This document shows, in pieces, positions 24,957 to 52,579 of a DNA stretch of 64,000 bases. Position 1 is the stretch's first letter. Each line of letters opens with the position of its first letter. The notes under the pieces were generated by a model that worked only from the letters and a program-made list of their open reading frames with translations, did not search any database and had not been told where the DNA came from. Where the stretch lies: contig NZ_CP021780.1 in the NCBI RefSeq assembly GCF_002192415.1, forward strand, positions 4,278,001 to 4,342,000, written 5' to 3'. The DNA is from Paenibacillus donghaensis (GTDB lineage Bacteria > Bacillota > Bacilli > Paenibacillales > Paenibacillaceae). Made by a program: the position numbers and the translations under genes.

Positions 24957-25147
24957 AAATAGATGCGAAAGTGCAACTAATTTCACCCGGATCGCTAACT
25001 TGCGGGCAAATAAGTGCGAAAGTGCAACTAATTTCGAGTAAATCAAGCCTCTTACGCTCAAACGCTCAAATTAGATGCCTTATCGCACTTATTCCCTCCA
25101 AAACCGAAAAAACCAGCCAATTAGATGCGTTTTCGCAACTAATTGGG
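24957..25147. repeat. Class-1 hairpin-motif element, intact copy (between proB and proA)
   Basis: Four hairpin motifs: two forward (TGCGAAAGTGCA cores at 24964 and 25015) and two inverted (TGCCTTATCGCA at 25076, TGCGTTTTCGCA at 25126), each flanked by AATTAG/CTAATT-like arms. Core spacing is 51, 61 and 50 bp. It shares order and spacers with copies at 27933, 41283 and 52265. It fills most of the 363-bp proB-proA gap and has no reading frame worth keeping. It may affect proA expression, since it lies inside the operon. Confidence 0.85.
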
Positions 25148-39963: not shown

Positions 39964-39992
39964 TTGTACCTTAGCCGGCAATCTTGTTATAC
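39964..39992 (+). promoter_or_regulatory. Sigma-A promoter of the LD-carboxypeptidase gene
   Basis: TTGTAC (39964-39969) and TTATAC (39987-39992) are 17 bp apart, about 44 nt upstream of the start codon. Confidence 0.65.
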
Positions 39993-40035
39993 TAAGGAAT
40001 GCTGTACTATTTTATCGGCTGAACCGGAGGCAATT

Positions 40036-41049
40036 ATGATTAAATATCCGTATTTGGAACCAAACACAACCATCGGCGTAACCGCCCCTTCCTCCGGATT
40101 GAAGACAGAGCTTCATCCCTGGATGCATGCTGCAACCAGCCGTCTGAAGGCACAAGGCTACGTAGTGAACTGCGGTGAGACCGTATGGACCGAACAGAAG
40201 GCCAAATCGGCGCCTGCGCATATACGCGCAACGGAACTAAACGCCATGCTGACCGATGACAGCACCGGACTGATCTTCCCTCCCTGGGGCGGGGAGCTGC
40301 TGATTGAGACACTGGAGCATCTGAATCTGGAAGCCATCAAGCCGAAGTGGGTGCTGGGATACTCAGATATCAGCGTACTGCTGCTGGCGATCACCCTGCG
40401 GACGGGCATAGCCACGGCGCACGGCACCAATCTCGTCGATTTAAGAGGTGAGACTGATGATGAGACTACCGCGATGTGGCAGTCCATCTTAACTACCAAG
40501 ACTGGAGAGTCGATTGTCCAGCACTCCTCTGCAGCGTATCAGAAGGAATGGCCGGAGACGCCCTCTCCTACGGTTTTTAAGCTGACAGAGCCTACCGCCT
40601 GGAGAAGTATGTCAGGCGCCCCTGTCCGCATGCAGGGACGGCTGCTGGGCGGCTGCATCGATGTGATCCGGCATTTGATTGGCACCCCTTTCGGGGATGT
40701 CCGGCGTTTCCGCGAACAATTCATCAGTAATGAACCCATTGTATGGTTTCTGGAGAATTGCGAGCTGAATACCGTCGACCTACGCAGATCACTGGTGCAG
40801 ATGAAATTGGCAGGATGGTTTAAGCATTGCGCGGGTATTATGTTCGGCAGAAGCCCTGCCAACCGGCCTGTCGACGGCTATACTGCAGAGGATGTGTATG
40901 CAGATGTCGCTGCCGAGCTTCAGCTTCCGGTCATCTATGATATCGATTGCGGGCATGTGCCACCACAGCTTACTCTGATCAACGGTGCTTATGCCGAGAT
41001 TGAAGTCGCGAACGGCAGCGGCACGGTCCGTCAGACGTTCCGCCCATAG
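40036..41049 (+). CDS. LD-carboxypeptidase (peptidase family S66, LdcA/MccF-like)
   Basis: Serine peptidase that trims muropeptides between L- and D-residues in wall recycling, or in the MccF branch cleaves microcin-type compounds. About 337 aa from ATG 40036, preceded by GGAGG; the longer frame would start inside the promoter. The nucleophile lies in LGYSDISVLL, the catalytic glutamate probably in LENCELNTVDLRRSL, and the histidine in DIDCGHVPPQLTL. There is no signal peptide, so it acts in the cytoplasm. It has its own promoter and a bidirectional terminator. Which branch it belongs to cannot be settled by eye. Confidence 0.93.
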   Translation: MIKYPYLEPNTTIGVTAPSSGLKTELHPWMHAATSRLKAQGYVVNCGETVWTEQKAKSAPAHIRATELNAMLTDDSTGLIFPPWGGELLIETLEHLNLEAIKPKWVLGYSDISVLLLAITLRTGIATAHGTNLVDLRGETDDETTAMWQSILTTKTGESIVQHSSAAYQKEWPETPSPTVFKLTEPTAWRSMSGAPVRMQGRLLGGCIDVIRHLIGTPFGDVRRFREQFISNEPIVWFLENCELNTVDLRRSLVQMKLAGWFKHCAGIMFGRSPANRPVDGYTAEDVYADVAAELQLPVIYDIDCGHVPPQLTLINGAYAEIEVANGSGTVRQTFRP

Positions 41050-41138: not shown

Positions 41139-41299
41139 ATTGTATATTGAGTATTACATTCCTCAAAGGGAACCCGCTGCTTGTCTTTTAGGGCTGGTTG
41201 ATCAGACTGTCACTTGCGTGCAATATGGGTTACTACTTAGGACCCAGCGAGTGTTTATAAGGTAGCCTTGGAAGGTTCGGAGCAAATAGATGCGAAAGT

Positions 41300-41581
41300 G
41301 GTTACTACTTAGGACCCCAGCCATTCCCAAGTAGGTTTGTGCCTTCGGAGTAGTACAACAGAGGTGGCTATGGGGAAAAACTACCGTTAATACCTGGCTC
41401 ATGCTCGATTGTCGTGGCTTATAGGGAAAAGTGACCACTACATCGTCCATTTAGGGCTTTTCGGAGCGGATAGGATCTCATTAGTGGTAAAAATTCCCTA
41501 TAAGCTCGCCAGAACGCCCAACCTTCGTCCAACTAGCGGTAGAATTTCCCTATCATTCCTCACTGGACCTAAGTAGTAACC
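41300..41581. mobile_element. 282-bp MITE-like element (element A) in a class-1 hairpin loop
   Basis: Ends are GGTTACTACTTAGG and its exact complement CCTAAGTAGTAACC. The 6-bp GAAAGT is duplicated at 41294-41299 and 41582-41587; it is the loop of the class-1 hairpin TGC-GAAAGT-GCA. Inside are four copies of a GGGAAAA..TACC..TAA motif, two forward (GGG near 41373 and 41424) and two inverted (CCC near 41496 and 41548), 51-52 bp apart within each pair. There is no reading frame. It is colinear with the reverse complement of the element at 51921. Confidence 0.8.
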
Positions 41582-41648
41582 GAAAGTGCAACTAAATTCG
41601 AGTAAATCAAGCGTCTTACGCTCAAATGCCCAAATTAGATGTATTATT

Positions 41649-42076
41649 GGTTACTACTTAGGCCCCCCTGGTGTTCCTTGTGTTACTCGTCCGAGCCTGT
41701 CCTACCACACCGCGCGACAAGGAGGCTAAGCATAACAAAGGAAGGCTGTCGCCGGTAACCAGCGCTTAACTTTCAGACTACTAACGGACTCAGGAGCCTC
41801 TATTTGCTGTAAAAAGGCTGTTTTGCAGGTCTAACGGACTCAGGAGCCCCTATTCAAGCCGAAACTCACTAGTTAAGGCCTGTTTTTCCGATATAGAGGC
41901 TATGCGGTCCGTTACATTCCAAACCAGCGCAGAAATGAGGAAATTGGAGCTATACGGTCCGTTAGGACGTAGGTTACCTGAAGTTCGGGTGGGGGAGGGT
42001 TTGGATTACGGTAGTGCGATCCCCTTACCTTCGCAAGTAAACCTTCTATATCCTCGCAGGGTCCTAAGTAGTTACT
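41649..42076. mobile_element. 428-bp MITE-like element (element B) in a class-1 hairpin loop
   Basis: It starts GGTTACTACTTAGG and ends CCTAAGTAGTTACT (two mismatches in the terminal repeat), flanked by ATTATT at 41643-41648 and 42077-42082. The core differs from element A. It carries two forward copies of CTAACGGACTCAGGAGCC (41781, 41831; 50 bp apart) and two inverted copies of TA(T/C)GGTCCGTTA type (near 41904 and 41954; 50 bp apart). There is no supportable reading frame. Confidence 0.75.
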
Positions 42077-42298
42077 ATTATTGCATCTATTTCCTCCAAA
42101 ACGGAAAAAATCCGCCCATTAGATGCATATTCGCAACTAAATCTCCAAAACTGCTCAATAGGACTGCCAGCCAGCGATAAGTCCACTGACAAACTCAGTT
42201 ATCGGCTCCAAAAGCAGCAATGCGGATATCACGATTCCCGCTGCAGAGGCTCTGGTTCTGCTCTTCATTATACAAATCTCCTCCAATAATAAAAATTA

Positions 42299-42817
42299 CT
42301 ATTGCTGTGGCAGATTATACCCCTCACCGATTTCGGTTCCGTCGGCGAAGCGGAAGAACTTGTAATGATAGATTCCTTCCTGCTGGTAGAACAGCTGCCA
42401 CACATATTCTCCGTTAAACACGCCCGGCAGCAGCCGCTCCACCTTGATGCCGGGAAGCTGCGACTTGATGATAGCGCGGACCTGCTCCTCCGAGGTTCCC
42501 TTGCTGATCTCTTCGCCGTACACGGCGTTCTCGCCTTCCGCAGCTGTGCCTCCGGGCAGGAAGCGGACCCACACCATCAGCTCTTGTCCGGCAGCATTGT
42601 TCCCGGTCAGCACCCAATAGATTGCTTCTTCACCCCAGACGGATTTCTGCGCTTTGGATATTTCGGTTAGTCCGGCCTGGGTTCGGGCAATATCCTCGGC
42701 AATTTGCTGCTCGCCCCATTGAGATTTCATGATATAGGCATAGAACTGGATTAATCCCACTACCAGGAGCACAATCAGTACCGATCCCAGCAGGATCCAT
42801 TTTCTCCTTTTCTTCAA
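42299..42817 (-). CDS. tseB: TseB/YpmB-like cell-wall elongation protein (DUF5590)
   Basis: Single-pass membrane protein, 172 aa: basic start MKKRRKW, membrane segment ILLGSVLIVLLVVGLIQFYAY, then an extracellular domain with two cystatin/PepSY-like repeats (SVWGEEAIYWVLTGNN, VWVRFLPGG, GEYVWQLFYQQEGIYHYKFFRFADG). B. subtilis YpmB/TseB supports PBP2A in rod-shaped elongation. Position between dinG and asnS matches Bacillus gene order, although rex and a deaminase gene lie between it and dinG here and aspB is missing. Confidence 0.85.
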   Translation of the reverse strand: MKKRRKWILLGSVLIVLLVVGLIQFYAYIMKSQWGEQQIAEDIARTQAGLTEISKAQKSVWGEEAIYWVLTGNNAAGQELMVWVRFLPGGTAAEGENAVYGEEISKGTSEEQVRAIIKSQLPGIKVERLLPGVFNGEYVWQLFYQQEGIYHYKFFRFADGTEIGEGYNLPQQ

Positions 42818-50797: not shown

Positions 50798-51016
50798 ACA
50801 AAAAAACCTCTTAGCATGTTCCGCTAAAAAGGTCCGAAGGGCAAAAAAGAGTCACTCGCGATCGTCCCTTCTGTCTCGGTCCTTACGGCTCAGAGCAGAA
50901 TCCAACGTAACCGTCAAACGCAGTTATGATGGTGCATCCCAATAACAAATTCTTGATTATTCCATTTACAGCAAGAGTACAGCTCGACATTCGATACCGC
51001 CTCTGCCGCTAGTATA
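50798..51016 (-). promoter_or_regulatory. panB leader RNA with attenuator terminator (candidate pan motif)
   Basis: On the minus strand a TATACT -10 (51011-51016, weak -35) precedes a leader of about 250 nt. It contains candidate stems (CGGTTACG with CGTA-AGG-ACCG; GAAGGG with CCCTTC) and ends in CCTTTTTAGC/GCTAAGAGG followed by TTTTTTT (50798-50832), a terminator before the panB ribosome site. A small dyad CGCGTTTACGCG lies at 50783-50794. The pan RNA motif is known upstream of panB in Firmicutes; assignment to it is inference, as I could not fold or align it. Confidence 0.5.
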
Positions 51017-51661: not shown

Positions 51662-52210
51662 GGCAATTAAGTGCGATTTCAGCCGAAACGTCCATCAGCA
51701 GACGAATACGTGCAAATCTGGTTACTGCTTAGGCCCTGGCGAGGATGTAGGGCAGCGACACCGTCAAGAAGCTTCAGAGTAAATTAGATGCGAAACTGCA
51801 ACTAATTTTTGCTGCAAACCCTGTCAGGGAGCAAATAAGTGCGAAACTGGTTACTACTTAGGTTCTTGCCAGGAATTTAGAGTCTGCCCTGGAACTTTTC
51901 GAGTAATTTGATGGGAAACTGGTTACTCCTTAGGGCCAGTCAGGATGTGTAGGGAAATTCTACCGCTAATTGTACGAAAGTTGGGGAATCTCATGAGAGG
52001 ATAGGGAGTTTCTACCACTAATGACACCCTATGGGCTCCAAAATGCCCTCGATAGACGATTTAGTGGTAACTTTTCCCTATATGCCATAGATTATCGATC
52101 ATTAGCCCTTAATTAACGGTAGTTTTTCCCCATAGCCACCTATATTTTTCTCTTTCGATGGCGCCAATCTGCTTGGGGAAGGCCCGAGTCCTAAGCAGTA
52201 ATCGAAACTG
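51662..52210. repeat. Class-1 motif array with element ends, interrupted
   Basis: Forward class-1 motif cores lie at 51672, 51711, 51789, 51840 and 51912. The 51789-51840 pair is 51 bp apart. Those at 51711, 51840 and 51912 run into GGTTACTACTTAGG-type ends at 51719, 51849 and 51921. The last one is the left end of a complete 283-bp element. The 51840-51912 distance (72 bp) equals that of 41219-41291, so the two islands share a composite ancestor. No gene is supported. Confidence 0.7.
51921..52203. mobile_element. 283-bp MITE-like element (element C)
   Basis: Ends GGTTACTCCTTAGG and CCTAAGCAGTAATC, flanked by GAAACT at 51915-51920 and 52204-52209. It aligns along its whole length, almost without gaps, with the reverse complement of element A (282 bp). 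By eye the first 120 positions match at roughly 75-80%. Four internal motifs are placed two forward (GGG at 51952 and 52004) and two inverted (CCC at 52076 and 52128), 52 bp apart in each pair. There is no reading frame. Confidence 0.8.
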
Positions 52211-52264
52211 CAACTAAATTCAGCTGAAACATCAATGTAGAGTGTTGCATAAGAGCTTTCAGAG

Positions 52265-52455
52265 AATTAGATGCGAATCTGCATTTAATTTCAGCTGAAA
52301 TTCCTGTTAGCGGAGAAATAAGTGCGAATCTGCAACTATTTTCAAGGAAAACGTTTGTTTAACGCTCAAAACTCGAAATTAGATGCGTATTCGCACTTAT
52401 TTGCTCCAAAACAGAAAAAATCGGTGAATTAGGTGCGTTTTCGCACTTAAATCGC
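52265..52455. repeat. Class-1 hairpin-motif element, intact copy (upstream of the birA end)
   Basis: Forward cores TGCGAATCTGCA at 52272 and 52323, inverted cores TGCGTATTCGCA at 52384 and TGCGTTTTCGCA at 52434. Spacing 51, 61 and 50 bp is identical to the copy at 24957, with recognisable spacer similarity (CTCCAAAAC.GAAAAAA between the inverted pair). Confidence 0.85.
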
Positions 52456-52512
52456 TGGCTGGACTAAGGTGGTGTTCAAGAAATCACATCTTGGATGCTC
52501 CTATCTTATGGA

Positions 52513-52579
52513 GACCTAAGCAGCAACCCGTTTCGCAACTAAATGTTCGGCTCCTTAAAGGAGTCCTAAGTAGTAACCG
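52513..52579. repeat. Two unpaired right ends of the inserted-element family
   Basis: CCTAAGCAGCAACC (from 52515) and CCTAAGTAGTAACC (from 52565) lie 50 bp apart, each joined to a class-1 half motif (CGTTTCGCAACTAAAT; GAAACTGCA). The second has the same GAAACT flank as the left end at 51849, so an older, larger nested insertion is possible. A short GGGG/CCCC hairpin before birA (52598-52613) has no T tract. Confidence 0.6.

Follow-up and report, generated by a model that had tools for sequence, protein, structure and literature searches.

The two inserts that interrupt a class-1 palindromic repeat in Paenibacillus donghaensis are very probably non-autonomous MITEs of the ISBst12-type IS66 family, moved in trans by a single-ORF transposase with a preference for palindromes. 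The window, the whole stretch of 64,000 nucleotides analysed here, spans 4278001-4342000 of a one-contig 8.54-Mb genome, and the nest lies between two convergent ORFs at 39964-41049 (+) and 42299-42817 (-). The class-1 host opens with the left terminal repeat GTTACTACTTAGG at 41229..41241 (+) and has only three palindromes, the first occupied by element A, the second by element B and the third uninterrupted (ATTAGATGC-ATATTC-GCAACTAAA, 42118..42141); a search of 42121-42420 at up to four mismatches revealed no right host end. Element A, a class-2 MITE of 280 bp with terminal repeats that agree at 13/13 positions, occupies 41301..41580 (+) and is flanked by the target duplication CGAAAGTG, the left copy at 41293..41300 within host palindrome 1 and the right copy at 41581..41588. 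Three of its four class-2 units were found as inverted repeats within 41417..41553 (41417-41440, 41482-41505 and 41534-41553). Element B, a class-3 MITE of 426 bp bounded by GTTACTACTTAGG and GTAACTACTTAGG, occupies 41650..42075 (+) between copies of TATTATTG at 41642..41649, within host palindrome 2, and at 42076..42083; its array of two direct and two inverted class-3 units, spaced 50-61-50 bp, covers 41781..41965. No plasmid match to 41300-42076 was found.

Both inserts and their flanks thus lie where a first-pass annotation of the sequence had placed them, as two insertions into separate palindromes of a single class-1 element. Its spacing arithmetic also holds, in that the palindromes return to spacings of 61 and 50 bp once each insert is subtracted together with one copy of the duplication. 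The proposed insertion with target duplication is borne out as well, with a duplication of 8 bp (CGAAAGTG, TATTATTG) instead of the 6 bp originally read; the earlier sums were unaffected because 282+6 equals 280+8 and 428+6 equals 426+8. The GG-type end described at that stage must be replaced by the 13-bp end GTTACTACTTAGG, since targets are mostly TGC-N6-GCA and the outer G on the left and outer C on the right are therefore target bases. The separation of A and B from the class-1 element as different kinds likewise gives way, as the host itself begins with the same end.

The length of the duplication was examined in 66 pairs of ends matched on the inner six bases only, which avoids bias toward either reading. 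The two copies agree in 90.9% of pairs at base 0 and in 93.9% at base 7, and in 4.5% at each of the positions immediately outside, -1 and +8. Agreement persists where base 0 is other than C (15/18) and where base 7 is other than G (7/9). This offset profile rules out a 6-bp duplication with GGTTAC ends. Element B displays the 8-bp duplication directly, with TATTATTG on both sides, and the one odd base at its right end is target DNA, explained by the 8-bp reading.

A genome-wide search for the ends, suggested in the same annotation, recovers TAGATGC-N6-GGTTACTACTTAGG at up to two mismatches 131+132 times, compared with 0 for the reversed control. Within the window, GGTTACTACTTAGG matches 14 times at up to three mismatches, against 2.34 (sd 1.65) in shuffled sequence; the ends are not due to chance. 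The exact 13-bp end is present in 142+165 copies in this genome and in at most 19 copies per genome in 18 others checked, and one scan gave three named records with these ends, all from Paenibacillus. Insertions were validated in a sample of 120 stretches of 20 kb, 60 picked for exact ends (L011-L070) and 60 drawn at random (L122-L181), which together with the window cover 2.464 of 8.54 Mb. The 78 validated pairs were sorted by BLAST into 20 of class-1, 12 of class-2 (A-like), 42 of class-3 (B-like) and four rows of IS66 elements, one of these a composite; 56 of the 78 are exact across 8 bp.

The search for a full-length transposon with the same ends, likewise proposed in the first-pass annotation, leads to three IS66-family elements of the ISBst12 type. 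A protein search of the genome returns three close IS66 genes, two of them identical and one at 86%, together with one distant relative at 26%. Both distinct proteins score above cut-off for PF03050 and NF033517, and the third copy is 100% identical to one of them. Each element is filled by a single ORF of the TnpC type, 501 and 509 aa in elements of 1603 and 1627 bp; the ORF reaches into the right end, and the remaining ORFs are antisense overlaps. All three close copies have the same ends, an exact 8-bp duplication and a TGC-N6-GCA class-1 target, and one copy resides inside a class-1 element that is itself seated in a palindrome (a 1919-bp pair). Terminal bases held in common with one IS66 copy extend to 26 and 18 exactly for B-like MITEs and to 18 for A, and window B aligns with an IS66 copy over 20 terminal bases at 95%. 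A and B, in turn, are small, are devoid of a transposase ORF, bear the termini of an autonomous element and are flanked by a target duplication, as is characteristic of MITEs. These features suggest mobilisation in trans by the IS66 transposase. Against this, only three close IS66 genes are available for hundreds of ends, and two of these encode identical proteins.

Genes of the IS256, IS4-like and IS110 types also occur between such ends and were considered as movers. MITE sequence resumes with short overlaps on either side of these genes, so they were discounted as later arrivals in MITEs. An IS110-family gene lies in a B-type MITE near the fourth class-3 unit at two loci (L035:17326-19549 and L013:10320-12440), the copies being 97% identical. 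Apparent secondary insertions also occur at L021:9945-11673 and L039:17855-19688, where an A-type MITE contains an IS256-family gene and a related MITE an IS4-type gene. Identity with an IS1397-type (IS3 family) element was also rejected, the shared ends belonging to IS66 elements.

The preference for class-1 palindromes proposed in the initial annotation is evident across the validated insertions. When the target halves are joined, 51 of 78 read TGC-N6-GCA, 10 contain one half and 17 contain neither. With one-base variants allowed, palindromes account for 55/78 sites, and 47 of these 55 have a neighbour at array spacing. Among validated insertions from the random stretches alone, only 6/10 are in palindromes, all six with neighbours, a share that counts against the favoured explanation. 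Both halves or one half of the core are present for 12/12 class-2, 36/42 class-3 and 9/20 class-1 elements. The 17 core-less targets have T at -6 in 28/34 half-sites and A at -5 in 20/34, and they outscore 2397 neighbouring positions, with 0/20000 resamples as high. Part of the mean target preference could stem from better survival of old insertions in non-coding palindromes.

What the transposase recognises bears on the earlier suggestion of loop targeting as a structural phenomenon. Recognition of an extruded hairpin, as a cruciform or single strand cut at its loop, would fit the observations that the cut falls at the centre of a palindrome in most targets, and that in one other genome (G325) the target is still a palindrome despite a quite different stem sequence. 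Such a mechanism is nonetheless improbable. In 17/78 targets the inner stem is absent but the outer TA-R and an A/T-rich centre recur; the inner stem is thus dispensable, and reading of sequence becomes likelier than recognition of a hairpin. Furthermore, the loop-closing pair lies within the duplication, and the palindromes fold unevenly as single-stranded DNA, with z values relative to shuffles of -2.7, -0.1, 0.0 and -6.5, such that only two of the four sampled fold beyond the shuffles. Loop targeting in the structural sense is accordingly not supported.

Two further explanations fare worse. Insertion might be random or weakly selective, with copies in arrays over-represented because selection removed the others; the arrays do offer non-coding landing sites, and the window nest indeed sits between two convergent ORFs. 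The insertions, however, coincide with one base position of the palindrome rather than falling just anywhere in an array, and TA-R is seen again both outside arrays and in other genomes, which leaves this account very unlikely. It is harder still to credit that A and B never inserted at all, the arrays having grown them or the spacing being coincidental. Recurrence of loop sequences lends that idea some basis, in that 3.5% of control pairs drawn across loci match at 7 or all 8 bases, but the 78 pairs match across 8 bp with sharp edges, A-like and B-like elements occupy many different places, and uninterrupted arrays are common. In the favoured mechanism, insertion by an IS66 transposase that itself probably reads the target, the enzyme would cut with a stagger of 8 bp (9 bp in some relatives) at a preferred target that would be symmetric, with TA-R at -6 to -4 and its mirror image opposite; the best fit would come from TTAGATGC-N6-GCAACTAA palindromes. 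The elements may benefit from landing in non-coding DNA.

The association recurs in other genera. IS66 matches at E<=1e-110 are found in 15/295 genomes of the family, the source genome included, and 30 loci were examined. In 18 of these, an 8-bp duplication accompanies the 13-bp end or a close variant of it (three in the source genome, for one of which the pair found is the outer composite, and 15 in nine other genomes). Of the other 12, six show 9-bp duplications, distributed over G325 (three), G301 (two) and G158 (one), and in six no duplication of 6-11 bp was found. Among loci from other genomes, with L183 included, duplications are of 8 bp in 15/24 and of 9 bp in 6/24. One such copy, in Paenibacillus sp. 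32O-W DE0098 (L093), is a 1605-bp element with the same ends and the duplication CAATTTTC.

Palindromes phased at approximately 51/61 bp host 11/21 of the duplication-flanked IS66 copies in other genomes. The copies in G247 (4/4) and G323 (3/3) occupy TGY-N6-GCA palindromes whose neighbours lie 50, 51, 61 or 111-112 bp away. In G325 (3/3; L185, L195 and L201), 9-bp duplications occur in a palindrome with a stem unlike TGC-N6-GCA, with similar palindromes 51 or 102 bp away; for one G301 copy, palindromes lie at +51 and +102. At random positions in the same loci, the frequency is 0.13% for a centred palindrome with such a neighbour and 7.9% for a neighbour alone, under a strict palindrome score that misses several TGC targets too. 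The eight remaining 8-bp copies show neither palindrome nor neighbours, and TGC-array matches are absent from six of the seven genomes concerned. The seventh, G180, has 12, yet its single resolved IS66 copy lies elsewhere, an observation that counts against array targeting. These eight copies outside TGC arrays have TA-R in 6/16 half-sites (flanks 3.9%, P 2e-5), and the 9-bp copies have it in 12/12 (flanks 2.8%), three of the six being near-identical targets from one genome.

Some of the class-1 arrays themselves travel inside MITEs with the same ends. At up to two mismatches, ends flank both sides of 22/41 four-palindrome arrays in the end-chosen stretches and 6/20 in the random ones; at up to four mismatches these counts rise to 32/41 and 8/20. 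The reversed-end control gives 0 and 0 at the stricter threshold and 2 and 0 at the looser one (chosen and random, respectively). Only part of the class-1 arrays therefore travel in MITEs of the IS66-ended family, and because that part bears IS66-type ends, the family nests in itself, such copies being expected to spread more landing sites. Elsewhere in the window, an intact class-1 array of four palindromes spaced 51-61-50 (24958..25144) has no family ends within 130 bp at up to four mismatches. At 51720..52578, class-1 and class-2 elements form a second, tangled nest that bears several ends, and repetition of loops makes end pairing there ambiguous. The Rfam pan motif RF01749 is matched at 50867-51003 (-) with 41.3 bits, relative to a gathering score of 36.2.

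The arrays have a fixed geometry. Spacings in the source genome and in a second genome, G007, were listed without fixing them beforehand. Class-1 neighbours closer than 100 bp are separated by 50, 51, 60 or 61 bp in 168/168 cases in end-chosen stretches, and the 60 random stretches give 50 (22), 51 (24), 61 (23) and 62 (1), 70/70 in total. Class-3 units follow 50-61-50 in 30/30 elements with four matches in order, and class-2 units 50-52 and 61 in 8/8. In G007, spacings below 150 are 50 (15), 51 (28), 60 (1) and 61 (18), with four others once each; its arrays have different stems, and the genome contains no exact family end. Arrays of more than four units, for example 51-61-51-51-50, occur there at L107 and L119, and some arrays at L104-L119 are, by eye in the alignment, apparently flanked by another inverted repeat near CATTATGAAATGGATTC. 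A search pattern that fixes only the 51 and 61 spacings finds TGC-N6-GCA arrays in 80/295 genomes of the family, distributed over 15/19 genera; the reversed pattern gives two matches in total. In G323 and G126, a fourth unit outside the search pattern is located at 162-163 in 14/20 fetched arrays, and in alignments from G007, G323 and G126 the arrays form part of larger repeats that vary in extent. The spacing of 61 exceeds 50.5 by one turn of the helix, suggestive of proteins bound on one face of the DNA.

Rfam gives no match across the intact array of the window. A Y1/RAYT transposase was rejected as array mover: the Y1 domain (PF01797) is present in 12/21 genomes searched, is absent from the three array-rich genomes G210, G231 and G200 and does not track the arrays. 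The chances are roughly even that the arrays constitute a distinct bacterial repeat, typically two forward and two reverse palindromes locked at 50/51-61-50/51 with one additional helical turn in the inverted pair, its geometry kept across Paenibacillaceae and its stem varying by genome and array class, as expected if a multi-site protein complex organises them; ISBst12-type IS66 elements land there and, in this genome, also carry them.

Partial parallels exist among known systems. ISDge4 of Deinococcus geothermalis, an IS66-family member of the ISBst12 group, is described as having one ORF, ends like GTnACTnCTnAG and an 8-bp direct repeat (PMC12898284). The present elements resemble it in their single-ORF transposase, similar ends and 8-bp repeat; they differ in that hundreds of non-coding MITEs here bear the ends, insertion is palindrome-centred and some relatives generate 9 bp. 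The analogy drawn in the first-pass annotation with insertion sequences that strike REP palindromes is apt, in that both land specifically in dispersed extragenic palindromes. IS1397, ISKpn1, IS621 and others target REP/BIME palindromes, and the palindrome-landing families listed are IS3, IS110, IS4, IS256 and IS5, the term IS66 being absent from that paper (PMC1525189). In contrast to those systems, it is mostly MITEs that insert here, and they partly bring palindromes along. Like REP/BIME sequences, the arrays are clusters of regularly spaced imperfect palindromes and possibly non-autonomous mobile units (PMC2817692). The regular spacing is shared, whereas the alternating orientation of REP/BIME units is replaced by two forward and then two reverse units at 50/51-61-50/51 bp, and a cognate RAYT is lacking, Y1 (PF01797) being absent from three array-rich genomes.

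Among the matches listed in open-licence PubMed Central, neither IS66-derived MITEs in Paenibacillus nor arrays of this kind are described, which does not prove that no description exists. The findings would add IS66 to the families linked with extragenic palindromes, and they make a target consensus available for a transposition assay. They reveal a family whose non-autonomous copies partly spread new landing sites, and they expose a palindrome array with fixed spacings in 15 of the 19 genera of the family sampled.
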